DNA from: an uncultured Tateyamaria sp.
Lineage (GTDB): Bacteria; Pseudomonadota; Alphaproteobacteria; Rhodobacterales; Rhodobacteraceae
Reading direction: 5' to 3'
Assembly (NCBI RefSeq): GCF_947504105.1
Contig: NZ_CANNGP010000007.1
Span: 62,001 to 126,000 of the forward strand
DNA: 64,000 bases
In this document: positions 55,936 through 59,380 of the stretch, in pieces
Position numbering within the stretch: the first letter of the stretch is position 1
Layout: each line of letters opens with the position of its first letter
Notes under the pieces: model-generated
Databases searched by the model: none
What the model was told of the DNA's origin: nothing
What the model saw: only the letters and a program-made list of their open reading frames with translations
Program-made: the position numbers and the translations under genes

Positions 55936-56754
55936 ATGTCACAGCCTTCTCTCCAAAACGGGTTTGCGCCTGAAACGGACACTCAACGCTTTGCGCAACG
56001 CAGGGCGGCGATCGACTTGATCGCAACAACCCGCGCGCGGGCGATCCGCTCGGCATTGTTTGGTTCTTACCTTTTTCGCGTGAATCCACTCGGAACGGAA
56101 ACAGCCGAGATGCGGGCACAATGGCGGGCAATCCTGAAAGAGCAATACGATGCGATTGCGCGTTCAGCAGCTTTGGTACAAGGAACTGACCCTCAGCGGG
56201 TCGTTCCAGACTGGGTATGCGACTGGATTGGGCAACACGGTTCCGAAAATCCGAAGGCAGTTGCCTCATTTGTTCAAATGCGCGACCTAACCCACGCTGT
56301 CACCCTTGCTGCAGATGCGGATGATGTCCGGCAGCTCCGTGATGCTCTGAGTGTCCATCTACGGGTCGGAAGGGGCGGTTTTTTCGAGTGTGTGACGGGA
56401 TTTTGTGACGGCTTGTGGGCCAAGTTGGACGTAAATCGTCACGAGGAAGTCGAACGAGCAAGCGCAGCCGGCGACGCGATCTCCAAAACTCTGATGCGGC
56501 TAGAGCAGATCGGCAAGCATGTGCGCCTTGTTTCCCTCAATGCGTCGGTCGAGGCAGCGCGCGTCGGCGATGCGGGACGTGGCTTGGGCGTGATCGCAGT
56601 CGAATTCAAAACGCTTGCCGAAGAAATTCAGATGCTGGCGACCACCGCACGCACCGAAATCGCCACAATGGCCGGTGAAAAGAACAACAGCAACGTCGCC
56701 ACCAGCACCAAAAATTTACCGTTAATGTCTGTTACGGCCCATCAGACGCAATAA
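55936..56754 (+). CDS. Short cytoplasmic MCP-like signalling protein
   Basis: 272 residues, no membrane segment. The N-terminal 170 residues are helical without a recognised sensor domain. The C-terminal region contains the methyl-accepting chemotaxis hairpin tip VSLNASVEAARVGDAGRGLGVIAVEFKTLAEE near 195-225, which normally contacts CheA/CheW. Only about 100 residues of MCP signal domain are visible, much less than a full dimeric coiled coil, so it may be a truncated or accessory receptor. It follows the response regulator by 48 bp in the same direction. No che genes lie in the window. Confidence 0.72.
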   Translation: MSQPSLQNGFAPETDTQRFAQRRAAIDLIATTRARAIRSALFGSYLFRVNPLGTETAEMRAQWRAILKEQYDAIARSAALVQGTDPQRVVPDWVCDWIGQHGSENPKAVASFVQMRDLTHAVTLAADADDVRQLRDALSVHLRVGRGGFFECVTGFCDGLWAKLDVNRHEEVERASAAGDAISKTLMRLEQIGKHVRLVSLNASVEAARVGDAGRGLGVIAVEFKTLAEEIQMLATTARTEIATMAGEKNNSNVATSTKNLPLMSVTAHQTQ

Positions 56755-56862
56755 AGTTTCTATTTTTTTCCGCTGGGAGACAGATTTTTCTGAATTTGGG
56801 CTGTTGACCCTCCCTCGGACGGCGCATAATGTTCGCACACGCAGAAAAGGACCTCAGGGTTA

Positions 56863-56910
56863 ATGACTGATCTAGTCGTCATCGTAGTGGACATGCGCAT
56901 GGGCCGGTAA
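56863..56910 (+). CDS. ilv leader peptide (15 aa) with Leu/Val/Ile control codons
   Basis: ATG at 56863 encodes MTDLVVIVVDMRMGR and stops at 56908-56910. Codons 4-9 are Leu-Val-Val-Ile-Val-Val, exactly the end products made by the ilvB-ilvH enzymes downstream. It starts after an AGGG-type ribosome site (56856-56859 region). Its 3' part overlaps an RNA segment, GCGCATGGG (56895-56903), complementary to a segment just before the terminator. This is a classic transcription-attenuation leader for branched-chain amino-acid synthesis. Confidence 0.85.
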   Translation: MTDLVVIVVDMRMGR

Positions 56911-56960
56911 CGGAATTCCAGACTGACACCCATGCGCCCCCGAAACCCGGGGGTTTTTTT
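56895..56960 (+). terminator. ilv attenuator: antiterminator pairing and terminator
   Basis: Terminator: CCCCCG (56937-56942) / CGGGGG (56948-56953), loop AAACC, followed by seven T (56954-56960). Antiterminator: GCGCATGGG (56895-56903) is a perfect 9-bp complement of CCCATGCGC (56929-56937), which shares its last base with the terminator stem. Ribosome stalling at the Val/Ile codons would expose the upstream arm for pairing and prevent termination. Confidence 0.82.
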
Positions 56961-56996
56961 ATGCGCAATGATAAACCGCAGACGGAGCACGCGGAT

Positions 56997-58748
56997 ATGA
57001 CACGTCAAATGACCGGAGCGAAAATGGTCGTCCAAGCCCTCATCGATCAGGGTGTGGACACGGTATTCGGATATCCCGGTGGCGCTGTGCTACCGATTTA
57101 CGACGAAATCTTTCAGCAGAACTCGATCAAGCACATCTTGGTGCGCCATGAGCAAGGTGCGGTGCATGCCGCCGAAGGCTACGCGCGCGCGACAGGCAAA
57201 CCCGGCGTGTGCCTCGTCACCTCTGGCCCGGGTGCCACAAACGCCGTGACCGGTTTGACGGACGCATTGATGGATTCAATCCCGATCATCGTTCTGACAG
57301 GCCAGGTTCCTACATTCATGATCGGATCGGATGCGTTTCAGGAAGCGGATACGGTTGGCATCACCCGTCCCTGCACGAAACACAACTGGTTGGTGAAAGA
57401 AACCGACAGCCTGTCGGGCGTTATTCACGAAGCGTTTCATGTTGCGACTGCGGGCCGTCCAGGTCCGGTGTTGATCGACATTCCCAAGGATGTGCAATTT
57501 GCCACCGGCACCTACACCCCGCCCAAACCGTCGACCTCGCACTACCAACCGCAGGTCAAGGGCGACATGGAAGCGATCACTGAACTGGTTGCCGCCATCG
57601 AAACAGCCAAACGGCCAATTTTCTATACAGGCGGCGGGGTTATCAACTCTGGCCCCGGCGCCAGCCAATTGCTGCGTGAACTTGTGGATGCAACGGGTTT
57701 TCCGATCACATCAACCCTGATGGGGCTGGGATCCTACCCCGCCAGCGGCAAGCACTGGACAGGAATGCTTGGCATGCACGGCCTGTATGAAGCCAACATG
57801 GCGATGCACGATTGCGATCTGATGATCAACATCGGCGCACGTTTCGACGACAGGATTACCGGGCGCATCGATGCATTCAGCCCAAAGTCGAAGAAGGCGC
57901 ATATCGATATCGATCCATCGTCGATCAACAAAGTGATCAAGGCGGACATCCCGATTGTCGGAGATGTAGGGCACGTGTTGGAAGACATCCTGAAAGTATG
58001 GAAGTCGCGCGGCCGCAAGACCAATCAGGCCGCCATGGCCCAGTGGTGGTCCAAGATTGACGAATGGAAAGCGGTCGATTGCCTGAAGTTCAAACAAGAA
58101 GGCAAGACCATCAGGCCACAATACGCCCTTGCCCGGTTGGAAGCGCTTACGAAAGACCATGATCGCTACATCTGCACCGAGGTGGGCCAACATCAAATGT
58201 GGGCCGCGCAGTACCTGGGCTTCGAAGACCCAAACCGTTGGATGACATCCGGTGGGCTGGGCACAATGGGTTACGGCTTCCCGGCGTCGATTGGCGTACA
58301 GATGGGCCATCCGGAGGCATTGGTGATCAACGTTGCGGGTGAAGCATCCTGGCTGATGAACATGCAAGAGCTGGGCACCGCCATGCAATTCAATCTGCCG
58401 GTCAAGCAGTTCATCCTGAACAATGAACGCCTCGGTATGGTGCGCCAATGGCAAGAATTGCTTCACGGTGAACGCTATTCCCATTCATGGTCCGAGAGTC
58501 TGCCCGATTTCGTCAAACTGGCCGAAGCATTCGGAGCCAAGGGTATTATCTGTTCTGATCCTGACGATCTGGACGATGCGATCATGGAGATGATCACCCA
58601 TGATGGACCCGTGCTTTTTGACTGTCTGGTTGAGAAACACGAGAACTGTTTCCCCATGATCCCGTCGGGCAAGGCGCACAATGAGATGCTGTTGGGAGAA
58701 GCCGAAACCCAGGGTGTGATCGATGCAAAAGGCTCCGTGCTGGTGTAA
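56997..58748 (+). CDS. ilvB: Acetolactate (acetohydroxyacid) synthase large subunit
   Basis: TPP- and FAD-dependent enzyme making 2-acetolactate or 2-aceto-2-hydroxybutyrate, the first common step to valine, leucine and isoleucine. 583 residues. FGYPGGAVLPIYD near 22, RHEQGAVHAAEGYARA near 47 (active-site Glu), FAD-binding middle domain, and the C-terminal TPP region. Where the family has GDG, this has GEA with E449, followed by the conserved NN at 475-476 (ILNNERLGMVRQW). The start at 56997 is used because GGAG (56984-56987) fits; ATG 56961 just after the terminator is an alternative. Followed by ilvH; regulated by the attenuator upstream. Confidence 0.94.
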   Translation: MTRQMTGAKMVVQALIDQGVDTVFGYPGGAVLPIYDEIFQQNSIKHILVRHEQGAVHAAEGYARATGKPGVCLVTSGPGATNAVTGLTDALMDSIPIIVLTGQVPTFMIGSDAFQEADTVGITRPCTKHNWLVKETDSLSGVIHEAFHVATAGRPGPVLIDIPKDVQFATGTYTPPKPSTSHYQPQVKGDMEAITELVAAIETAKRPIFYTGGGVINSGPGASQLLRELVDATGFPITSTLMGLGSYPASGKHWTGMLGMHGLYEANMAMHDCDLMINIGARFDDRITGRIDAFSPKSKKAHIDIDPSSINKVIKADIPIVGDVGHVLEDILKVWKSRGRKTNQAAMAQWWSKIDEWKAVDCLKFKQEGKTIRPQYALARLEALTKDHDRYICTEVGQHQMWAAQYLGFEDPNRWMTSGGLGTMGYGFPASIGVQMGHPEALVINVAGEASWLMNMQELGTAMQFNLPVKQFILNNERLGMVRQWQELLHGERYSHSWSESLPDFVKLAEAFGAKGIICSDPDDLDDAIMEMITHDGPVLFDCLVEKHENCFPMIPSGKAHNEMLLGEAETQGVIDAKGSVLV

Positions 58749-58819: not shown

Positions 58820-59380
58820 ATGTCCGCACTCAAAATCAAAAAAGGCTCCACCAGCCACTCCGCTTATAACCTACGTCCTACCTTTTCGGACGTGGAAGAG
58901 CGGCACACCCTCGCGGTACTGGTCGAAAACGAACCGGGGGTTCTAGCCCGTGTCATCGGTTTGTTTTCTGGTCGTGGCTACAACATCGAAAGCCTGACGG
59001 TCGCAGAAGTGGATCATACCGGCCATCTGTCCCGCATCACCATCGTGACTGCAGGCACGCCGCAAGTGATAGAACAGATCAAGGCGCAGCTGGGCCGGAT
59101 CGTGTCCGTGCACGAAGTGCACGACCTTACGGTTGAGGGACCATCGGTAGAGCGTGAGCTCGCCATGTTCAAAGTCGCCGGTCAAGGCGACAAACGTGTC
59201 GAGGCGTTGCGTCTGGCCGATATTTTCCGTGCCAACGTTGTCGACAGCACTCTAGAAAGCTTTATTTTCGAGATTACGGGCGCGCCGGACAAGATTGATG
59301 CCTTTGCCGACCTGATGCACCCGCTCGGACTGGTTGAAGTCGCGCGAACCGGGGTTGCCGCCCTACCCCGCGGCGACTAG
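58820..59380 (+). CDS. ilvH: Acetolactate synthase small regulatory subunit
   Basis: 186 residues. Confers valine feedback inhibition on the large subunit. N-terminal extension (about 1-30) then an ACT domain (HTLAVLVENEPGVLARVIGLFSGRGYNIESLTVAEVDHTGHLSRITI near 32-77) and a C-terminal domain. The glycine-rich turn NEPGVLARVIGLFSGRGYNI is diagnostic. AAGGAAAAG precedes ATG 58820, 71 bp after ilvB. Its stop overlaps the convergent XRE gene by 4 bp. Confidence 0.94.
   Translation: MSALKIKKGSTSHSAYNLRPTFSDVEERHTLAVLVENEPGVLARVIGLFSGRGYNIESLTVAEVDHTGHLSRITIVTAGTPQVIEQIKAQLGRIVSVHEVHDLTVEGPSVERELAMFKVAGQGDKRVEALRLADIFRANVVDSTLESFIFEITGAPDKIDAFADLMHPLGLVEVARTGVAALPRGD

Follow-up and report, generated by a model that had tools for sequence, protein, structure and literature searches.

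The region between positions 56863 and 56960 of the window (the whole 64,000-nucleotide stretch analysed here) is probably a ribosome-controlled transcription attenuator of ilvB and ilvH (ilvBH), the genes of acetolactate synthase, with which branched-chain amino acid synthesis begins; in it, a helix formed upon ribosome stalling (P1) takes bases from the foot of an intrinsic terminator. The element is a real attenuator of a known kind and is new in this genome; the preliminary description, which had named it a leader-peptide attenuator upstream of ilvB-ilvH, is right in substance. For the window itself, ilv-operon control of this known kind is confirmed in a further genome, and the main interest lies in the relatives of the element: (i) the re-reading of the Rfam 'sRNA' family Atu_C8 as an attenuator, (ii) the copies that precede transporter genes, and (iii) the missing P1-terminator overlap in Rhizobiales. 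The features of the region are as follows.

56804-56832, forward strand: predicted promoter, TTGACC-N17-TAATGT (sequence; family pattern)
56846-56851, forward strand: probable ribosome-binding site of the leader ORF, AAAGGA (judged from the sequence)
56863-56910, forward strand: leader ORF, MTDLVVIVVDMRMGR and stop (ORF reading and family leaders)
56872-56889, forward strand: control codons CTA GTC GTC ATC GTA GTG (L V V I V V; sequence)
56895-56903, forward strand: 5' arm of P1, GCGCATGGG, within the leader ORF (sequence, alignment, helix statistics)
56904-56913, forward strand: small hairpin CCG-GUAA-CGG with the leader stop codon in its loop (alignment A1)
56929-56937, forward strand: 3' arm of P1, CCCATGCGC (sequence, alignment, helix statistics)
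56936-56954, forward strand: intrinsic terminator stem-loop GCCCCCG-AAACC-CGGGGGT, with 56936-56937 common to P1 (sequence)
56954-56960, forward strand: T tract of seven T (sequence)
56997-58748, forward strand: ilvB, acetolactate synthase large subunit (Pfam TPP_enzyme N/M/C)
58820-59380, forward strand: ilvH, acetolactate synthase small subunit (Pfam ALS_ss_C, ACT)

The coordinates first given for the ORF, the six control codons, the complement, the stem and the T-run all check to the base. The leader ORF has 15 codons, of which six consecutive ones encode L/V/V/I/V/V, and it overlaps the pairing segment as described, with the 5' arm of P1 lying inside it. The arms GCGCATGGG (56895-56903) and CCCATGCGC (56929-56937) form a perfect 9-pair complement. 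The terminator core CCCCCG (56937-56942) pairs with CGGGGG (56948-56953) and is followed by seven T; this is the 6-bp GC stem of the preliminary description, which becomes a 7-bp stem if G56936-U56954 is counted. The single base reported as common to antiterminator and terminator is C56937, and the overlap is 2 nt when the G-U pair is included.

A stem followed by a T-run is common (0.4 terminator-like sites are expected by chance in the leader stretch), and on this ground the element could be a chance likeness with no regulatory function. A small ORF having six L/I/V codons in a row, a helix with 8 or more Watson-Crick pairs and a GC stem with T-run coincide at one place in the window and nowhere in 30 shuffled versions of it (single bases permuted within blocks of 500 nt); ORFs with such a codon run alone number 4 in the window versus 1.3 per shuffle. 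The 98-nt element folds with a z of -2.15 (6 of 200 shuffles are as stable), and its minimum-energy fold holds both hairpins, P1 and the terminator, together, which counts against the proposed exclusion of the terminator by P1. The conservation, covariation and codon bias described below speak strongly against chance, which is a negligible explanation.

The predicted promoter would start transcription near 56839. The pattern TTG[AC]NN-N16..18-TANNNT lies upstream of 43 of 54 family leaders at a median of 28 nt before the leader start, as a raw count of predicted promoters. The ilvB start at 56997 is chosen from an alignment with relatives, most of which begin there, and from GGAG at 56984-56987; an alternative in-frame ATG at 56961 is also possible. 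Among plasmid records, the best named IlvB is that of Pseudorhodobacter turbinis (79% identical).

The element is conserved in the window's family (f1), which is probably the Rhodobacteraceae, to judge from this IlvB and from an Rfam match to a Ruegeria RNA elsewhere in the window (RF02647, below). An IlvB search of 61 family genomes, the window's own included, gives matches in 60 of them at 61 places. Upstream of 54 of these 61 ilvB loci, a terminator is accompanied by a leader in which four or more of six codons are L/I/V; a terminator-like hairpin precedes 59. The seven loci that depart from the combined pattern are L045, L046, L051, L055, L056, L059 and L060; L046 retains the RMGR end with fewer L/I/V, and L055, L059 and L060 show no such leader ahead of ilvB. 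The usual form of a family leader is M..(L/V/I)n...RMGR and stop. With E limited to <=1e-4, a covariance model of the element (R1) detects it in 174 of the 199 genomes of the family, and twice in three of these; the other 25 genomes, G017, G023 and G059 among them, give no match in this search. Two genomes, G024 (L021, L032) and G391 (L367, L399), have two ilvB copies each, and every copy has its own leader. A further copy in the window's own genome was sought and rejected, as the next best match has an E of only 0.105. The recurrence of leader codons and stems in relatives, which had been proposed as a check on the attenuator, is thus found at 54 of 61 ilvB loci and in 174 of 199 genomes.

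The pairing of the arms exceeds that of shuffled sequences. Of the 54 family leaders with terminator, 44 have a perfect helix of 8 bp or more, as against 51 of 5400 sequences with the 3' segment shuffled. With a lax criterion (at least 7 pairs including G-U) the count rises to 52 of 54, but 637 of 2700 shuffles also qualify, which leaves only the longer helices as evidence. The covariation of stems, proposed as part of the same check, is also observed. In alignment A1 (54 rows, from 56 sequences with at least three L/I/V minus L026 and L056, and thus differing slightly from the 54 loci above), two-sided changes occur in 10 of 17 pairs of P1, the small inner hairpin and the terminator, and 94.5% of cells are paired; these pairing values are reached in 0 of 500 shuffles, although a few distant rows are misaligned and kinship can lift sequences above shuffles without structure. 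When partners are slid by 2 columns, two-sided changes still occur in 8 of 17 pairs, but only 49% of cells are paired. The hairpin around the stop codon has two-sided changes in all three of its pairs (A1; 89.6 and 90.6% of cells paired) and is altered on both sides in L039 (GTCT-GTAA-AGAC). In P1, both arms are changed in L058 (GCGCATCG with CGATGCGC), L061 (GCGCACCG with CGGTGCGC) and L403 (GCGCATCGGC with GCTGATGCGC).

The control codons are biased in kind and in spelling. The parsed family leaders number 43, all picked by the canonical P1 core; their control regions include Val in all 43, Leu in 42 and Ile in 38. GTA makes up 51% of the 116 Val control codons and CTA 33% of the 61 Leu control codons of these leaders, compared to 6.2% and 1.4%, respectively, in ilvB (500 codons from each of 30 loci). 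A leader that senses tRNA charging finely would be expected to use rare control codons. In Rhizobiales leaders (n=70), GTA is only 22% and CTA is absent; constraints of RNA structure may favour some control-codon letters.

Conservation, two-sided changes and L/V/I control codons support the attenuator reading. To the observed anatomy, conservation, covariation, codon bias and computed effect on the terminator base, a working promoter, translation of the leader, stalling and the regulatory outcome are added by inference, with Val/Ile/Leu-tRNA charging as the putative signal that controls ilvBH. Transcription would begin at about 56839, and a ribosome would translate the 15-codon leader. Under a shortage of charged Val-, Leu- or Ile-tRNA, the ribosome would stall at the L-V-V-I-V-V codons, several of which are rare, and leave the downstream GCGCATGGG unpaired, such that P1 could form. 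P1 would take two bases at the terminator foot, the hairpin would not close against the T tract and RNA polymerase would continue into ilvB. When charged tRNA is plentiful, the ribosome would reach the stop codon and occlude P1's 5' arm; transcription would then end at the intact terminator, leaving an RNA of ~120 nt.

Folding computations, in which the ribosome footprint is barred from pairing and the ribosome is placed at the first control codon, the last control codon or the stop codon, or is absent, are consistent with parts of this scheme. In the window, P1 forms with a probability of 0.91 when the ribosome sits on the first control codon, of 0.33 when it sits on the last one and of 0.00 when it sits on the stop codon; the 5' arm begins 5 nt past the last control codon and is covered by a ribosome at the stop codon. 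By computation, ribosome position would govern P1 formation. The two bottom pairs of the window's terminator have probabilities of 0.33 (first control codon), 0.95 (stop), 0.96 (last control codon) and 0.33 (no ribosome). The terminator base is intact (0.96) at the last control codon because the ribosome there covers part of P1 (0.33). The untranslated leader is computed to be as open as the stalled one (both 0.33), and for the terminator stem as a whole the change is small (0.79 to 0.98). In the family (n=43), the bottom pairs average 0.64, 0.95, 0.89 and 0.58 for the first control codon, stop codon, last control codon and no ribosome; the Rhizobiales means (n=70), in the same order, are 0.93, 0.91, 0.92 and 0.92.

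The overlap on which base stealing depends is widespread in the family. P1 and terminator overlap by 2-3 nt in 47 of 55 parsed family elements, comprising 43 of 43 with the canonical P1 core (selected by that core) and 4 of 12 others. The eight without overlap have a gap of 0-5 nt (L026, L027, L049, L052, L053, L054, L058, L061). The Rhizobiales elements have no overlap in 70 of 70 cases, with a gap of 5-9 nt, in a set picked by a pattern that requires P1. In elements that precede major facilitator (MFS) genes in other families, the terminator reaches further into P1, by 5 nt in L179-L181 and 3 nt in L185; among L179-L185, P1 is perfect over 9 pairs in L180 only, is short or mismatched in L179, L181 and L185, and is outscored by another helix in L182-L184. 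The antiterminator logic first proposed therefore stands in part: the two common nucleotides loosen the terminator base in the folding of the window (0.33 versus 0.95), but such common nucleotides are absent from 8 of 55 family elements and from all 70 Rhizobiales elements. Base stealing at the terminator foot is favoured for the window; it is not the whole story in Rhizobiales and the eight family elements, because no overlap occurs there. A T-G step, often TGC, with ATG, GTG and TTG variants, follows the T tract (window 56954-56963) at a near-constant distance from the terminator in both groups (alignments A1 and A3). The RNA polymerase pause consensus is G at -10, Y at -1 and G at +1, and the T-G step would fit it.

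A classic switch is not detected. When the transcript is cut before the 3' arm of the terminator, sequestration of the terminator 5' arm in the family (n=43) hardly differs between a ribosome on the first control codon (0.53) and one on the stop codon (0.49), indicating no codon-dependent pre-emption; Rhizobiales elements (0.29 to 0.38, n=70) and MFS-linked elements (0.69 to 0.57, n=7) likewise do not switch in this test. The same test returns a clear contrast for Escherichia coli trpL (0.75 to 0.00, second Trp codon to stop) and thrL (0.90 to 0.01), and no clean contrast, in this simple form, for ivbL, leuL, hisL and ilvL. A switch in cut transcripts of the trpL and thrL type is rejected for these elements. 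A candidate classic antiterminator (P0), in which the linker upstream of P1 pairs with the terminator arm, is rejected as well, as this complementarity is no better than that of shuffled linkers (mean z +0.16 in the family, n=43; +0.78 in Rhizobiales, n=70).

Possible, though unlikely, is a mechanism in which P1 acts as a bridge that brings the stalled ribosome so near to the terminator that the hairpin has no room to fold, with no competition for base pairs. With ~45 nt looped out by P1, no more than a dozen nucleotides would separate the ribosome from the foot of the terminator, whereas a ribosome going on to the stop codon would melt P1 and end far enough away. P1 is retained in both groups and its terminator overlap is not, as such a mechanism would have it, and no competing pairing of linker and terminator arm was found. 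With P1 folded, the last control codon is ~6 nt from the terminator in the family (median; 3 in the window) and 12 nt in Rhizobiales (sum of medians); the stop codon is 25 nt away in the family (23-28, n=43) and 32 nt in Rhizobiales (31-35, n=70). These distances were not designed as a test. A ribosome within ~27 nt blocks a terminator in E. coli, according to the available part of PMC4824070, but this threshold comes from a fit to spacers downstream of a gene in that organism, and the 25 nt of the family is close to it. From the first control codon, moreover, the folded distance is nearer the threshold, and with the ribosome on the last control codon of the Rhizobiales elements, P1 is covered to such an extent that it rarely forms (0.07). 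A bridging role of P1 is proposed for Rhizobiales and for the eight family elements that lack overlap, and it may apply to the window too.

Hairpin 1:2 of the E. coli trp leader holds RNA polymerase until the ribosome arrives, and P1 could be mainly a pause hairpin of this sort, the decision on termination being made otherwise. The 5' arm lies in the leader ORF where a moving ribosome would melt it (P1 is 0.00 at the stop codon). Such a role is improbable, as it leaves the link between stalling and readthrough unexplained and no other antiterminator was found.

The conservation of P1 and of the RMGR end could also reflect a terminated leader RNA or peptide that acts in trans as well. The Rhizobiales version is filed in Rfam as a small RNA (RF02502), and the trp attenuator RNA (rnTrpL) and peptide (peTrpL) of Sinorhizobium meliloti are described as functional in trans in the portions available of PMC10117765 and PMC7298713. 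RMGR alters where P1 alters (e.g., L058, L061, L402 and L403), and thus RNA pairing fits better than a function of the peptide; action in trans is a very improbable explanation. For the window, the preferred reading continues to be an attenuator in which P1 takes bases from the terminator foot.

The relation to RF02502 (Atu_C8) extends beyond a shared helix. RF02502 matches the window element with 27.0 bits (E 0.00095 for the 171 bases searched), below its gathering score of 50; the element is related to this Rfam family and is not filed as a member. Positions 56600-57200 were compared to 4227 Rfam families, and at E <=5 only Atu_C8 and sR7 (E 1.8) match; other ilv-linked RNA motifs, the T-box and the ppGpp riboswitch give no match so far as they are among those 4227 models. 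Elsewhere in the window, Rfam RF02647 ('Ruegeria cis52 sRNA') matches 554-732 on the reverse strand with 133 bits. The RF02502 consensus translates to M-I-I-L-V-V-G-P-R-M-G-R. Its threshold is passed by 14 of 19 scanned loci, all of the Rhizobiales set and located before ilvB, MFS and ABC genes; L179, L180, L181, L183 and L009 fall below it. Of seven family loci scanned, the window's own (L002) included, only L030 appears with RF02502 at E <=0.05 (35 bits). A Rhizobiales model (R2), built without f1, recovers the window element with an E of 1.8e-5 and, among 397 genomes of the phylum, matches 26, all of the window's class.

Atu_C8 and the window element have the same order of parts, a leader ending RMG(R/K).. 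and the same P1; they differ in the 5-9-nt gap between P1 and terminator versus the 2-nt overlap, in the terminator sequence and in the Rfam label of sRNA. RF02502 is best read as the putative Rhizobiales form of the attenuator because its threshold is passed before ilvB, MFS and ABC genes and R2 matches the window. A link of RF02502 to an ilv or MFS gene was not found in the open-licence full texts searched. In Agrobacterium tumefaciens, three sRNAs of an earlier survey are 5' UTR leaders according to the part available of PMC3738593, and part of the re-reading may already be in print. RF02502 is also named as a benchmark family in the accessible text of PMC5913331.

Copies before transporter genes are found in and beyond Rhizobiales. 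Among 289 genomes of the class, R1 matches 33 at E <=0.01, of which 4 are family members. Eight non-family genomes from seven further families have the leader with an MFS gene downstream (G061, G208, G261, G357, G360, G272, G094 and G167); three of the eight MFS proteins were scanned and all pass the NCBIfam Bcr/CflA cut-off, the others being judged by sequence likeness. The other 21 genomes match weakly, and a script scan of 18 with a locus (3 were left out) finds no leader of this type. Some L/I/V-rich ORF is present at 8 of the 18 loci, four of them having the same ORF, which we take to be the end of a pyrophosphatase gene. Among class-wide relatives with at least 53% identity to a leader-linked MFS protein, the leader precedes 6 of 11, a count confined to these 11 loci with ~230 nt upstream of each (19 other loci were left out) and including six genomes already known as R1 matches.

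A pattern scan of named genomes adds Rhizobiales cases. For the 80 matches listed, an IlvB-like gene is downstream in at least 47, an MFS gene in at least 24 and another or no gene in at least 9. Of the last group, L240 (ABC transporter) and L290 have the right type of leader; L249, L255, L257, L271, L302, L310 and L315 look like chance and are set aside. R2 was then used on 25 whole Rhizobiales genomes chosen from the matches listed. The element is in 25 of 25 (as implied by the choice), with a copy before ilvB in 25 of 25 and two copies in 15. The second copy precedes an MFS gene in 12 of the 15, an ABC transporter in one (Sinorhizobium sp. A49) and a second ilvB in one; in the remaining genome, G388 (L397), it has a leader-like ORF and the gene behind it is left unassigned. 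The ABC protein of Sinorhizobium sp. A49 matches exporter-type NCBIfam families, with no cut-off passed among the 25 matches listed. Its N-terminus (L240, 1141-3096) reads MTSNNP, resembling the MTSDNP (L277) and MASDNP (L247) of MFS proteins; these residues would fit a swap of the gene downstream of the leader. Judged by eye, the MFS gene adjoins a pyruvate carboxylase-like gene in L242, L272 and L291, and is near ABC genes resembling amino-acid importers in L242 and L282. No report of the element before transporters was found in the open-licence full texts searched; attenuators that 'hop' between genes are described, without ilv, in the available part of PMC2965389.

The element before ilvB was also sought class-wide and is not general there: of 105 loci (drawn from the class, with the order of G167 added) a clear leader of this type is found at L070 alone, which belongs to the family. 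L080, L097 and L171 are weak or distant leader candidates, and about a dozen more have fewer L/I/V codons. Of 99 places, 91 entered the search. The parser demands a terminator with at least 4 T within 600 nt upstream and therefore misses other designs, perhaps that of Caulobacter. In L097, an L/V-rich ORF and a terminator lie ~416 nt before ilvB; in L185, the MFS-linked element has scattered Val codons only (MSIRIVSQYVWRAVL). Either may be a decayed or a different attenuator.

Taken together, the relatives permit a wider reading, which is held to be doubtful as a whole: one alphaproteobacterial element (Rfam Atu_C8) would be a mobile attenuator placing ilvB and transporters of the exporter type (Bcr/CflA MFS and, in one case, ABC) under the control of branched-chain tRNA charging, with P1 as a bridge and no antiterminator that overlaps the terminator, the 2-3-nt overlap having been added in most of f1. 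The elements provide a natural set of attenuators with and without P1-terminator overlap, on which the amount of base-pair competition that attenuation needs can be tested. They also predict that a Bcr/CflA-type transporter of Rhizobiales and relatives would be switched on by branched-chain amino acid shortage, which offers a handle on its substrate.

Several known systems resemble the window element. Vitreschak and colleagues reportedly predicted, in 2004, that ilvIH of alphaproteobacteria has attenuators of the branched-chain type. Attenuation of ilvBN in Caulobacter crescentus (Tarleton et al. 1994, cited in the part available of PMC4117421), an alphaproteobacterial ilvB leader peptide (Vitreschak et al. 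2004, cited in that of PMC1273637) and an 'ilvIH cis regulatory' element (Vitreschak et al. 2004, cited in that of PMC2573895) are of the same class and operon, with branched-chain codons and a terminator, as far as the descriptions in these citing papers go. The E. coli trpL, thrL, ivbL, ilvL, leuL and hisL leaders share with the window the leader codons, the terminator and the use of ribosome position as the signal; unlike the window, trpL and thrL sequester the terminator arm at the control codons and free it at the stop. Attenuation of the pyrBI type, in which ribosome proximity decides, is akin to the bridging alternative. It is not known to need a bridging helix. By contrast with the window, its terminator lies inside the leader gene and it responds to UTP (PMC4824070, in the part available). 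Corynebacterium ilvBNC (ilvB-II motif) has a Leu/Val leader and an adjacent terminator and antiterminator that share only three nucleotides, a small overlap like that of the window (PMC11857589 and PMC10272879, available parts); in C. glutamicum, the adjacent hairpins overlap in a trinucleotide that decides termination, as judged from mutants in the accessible text of PMC11857589. That system belongs to a different phylum and, in the same partial sources, has its own separate anti-antiterminator hairpin.
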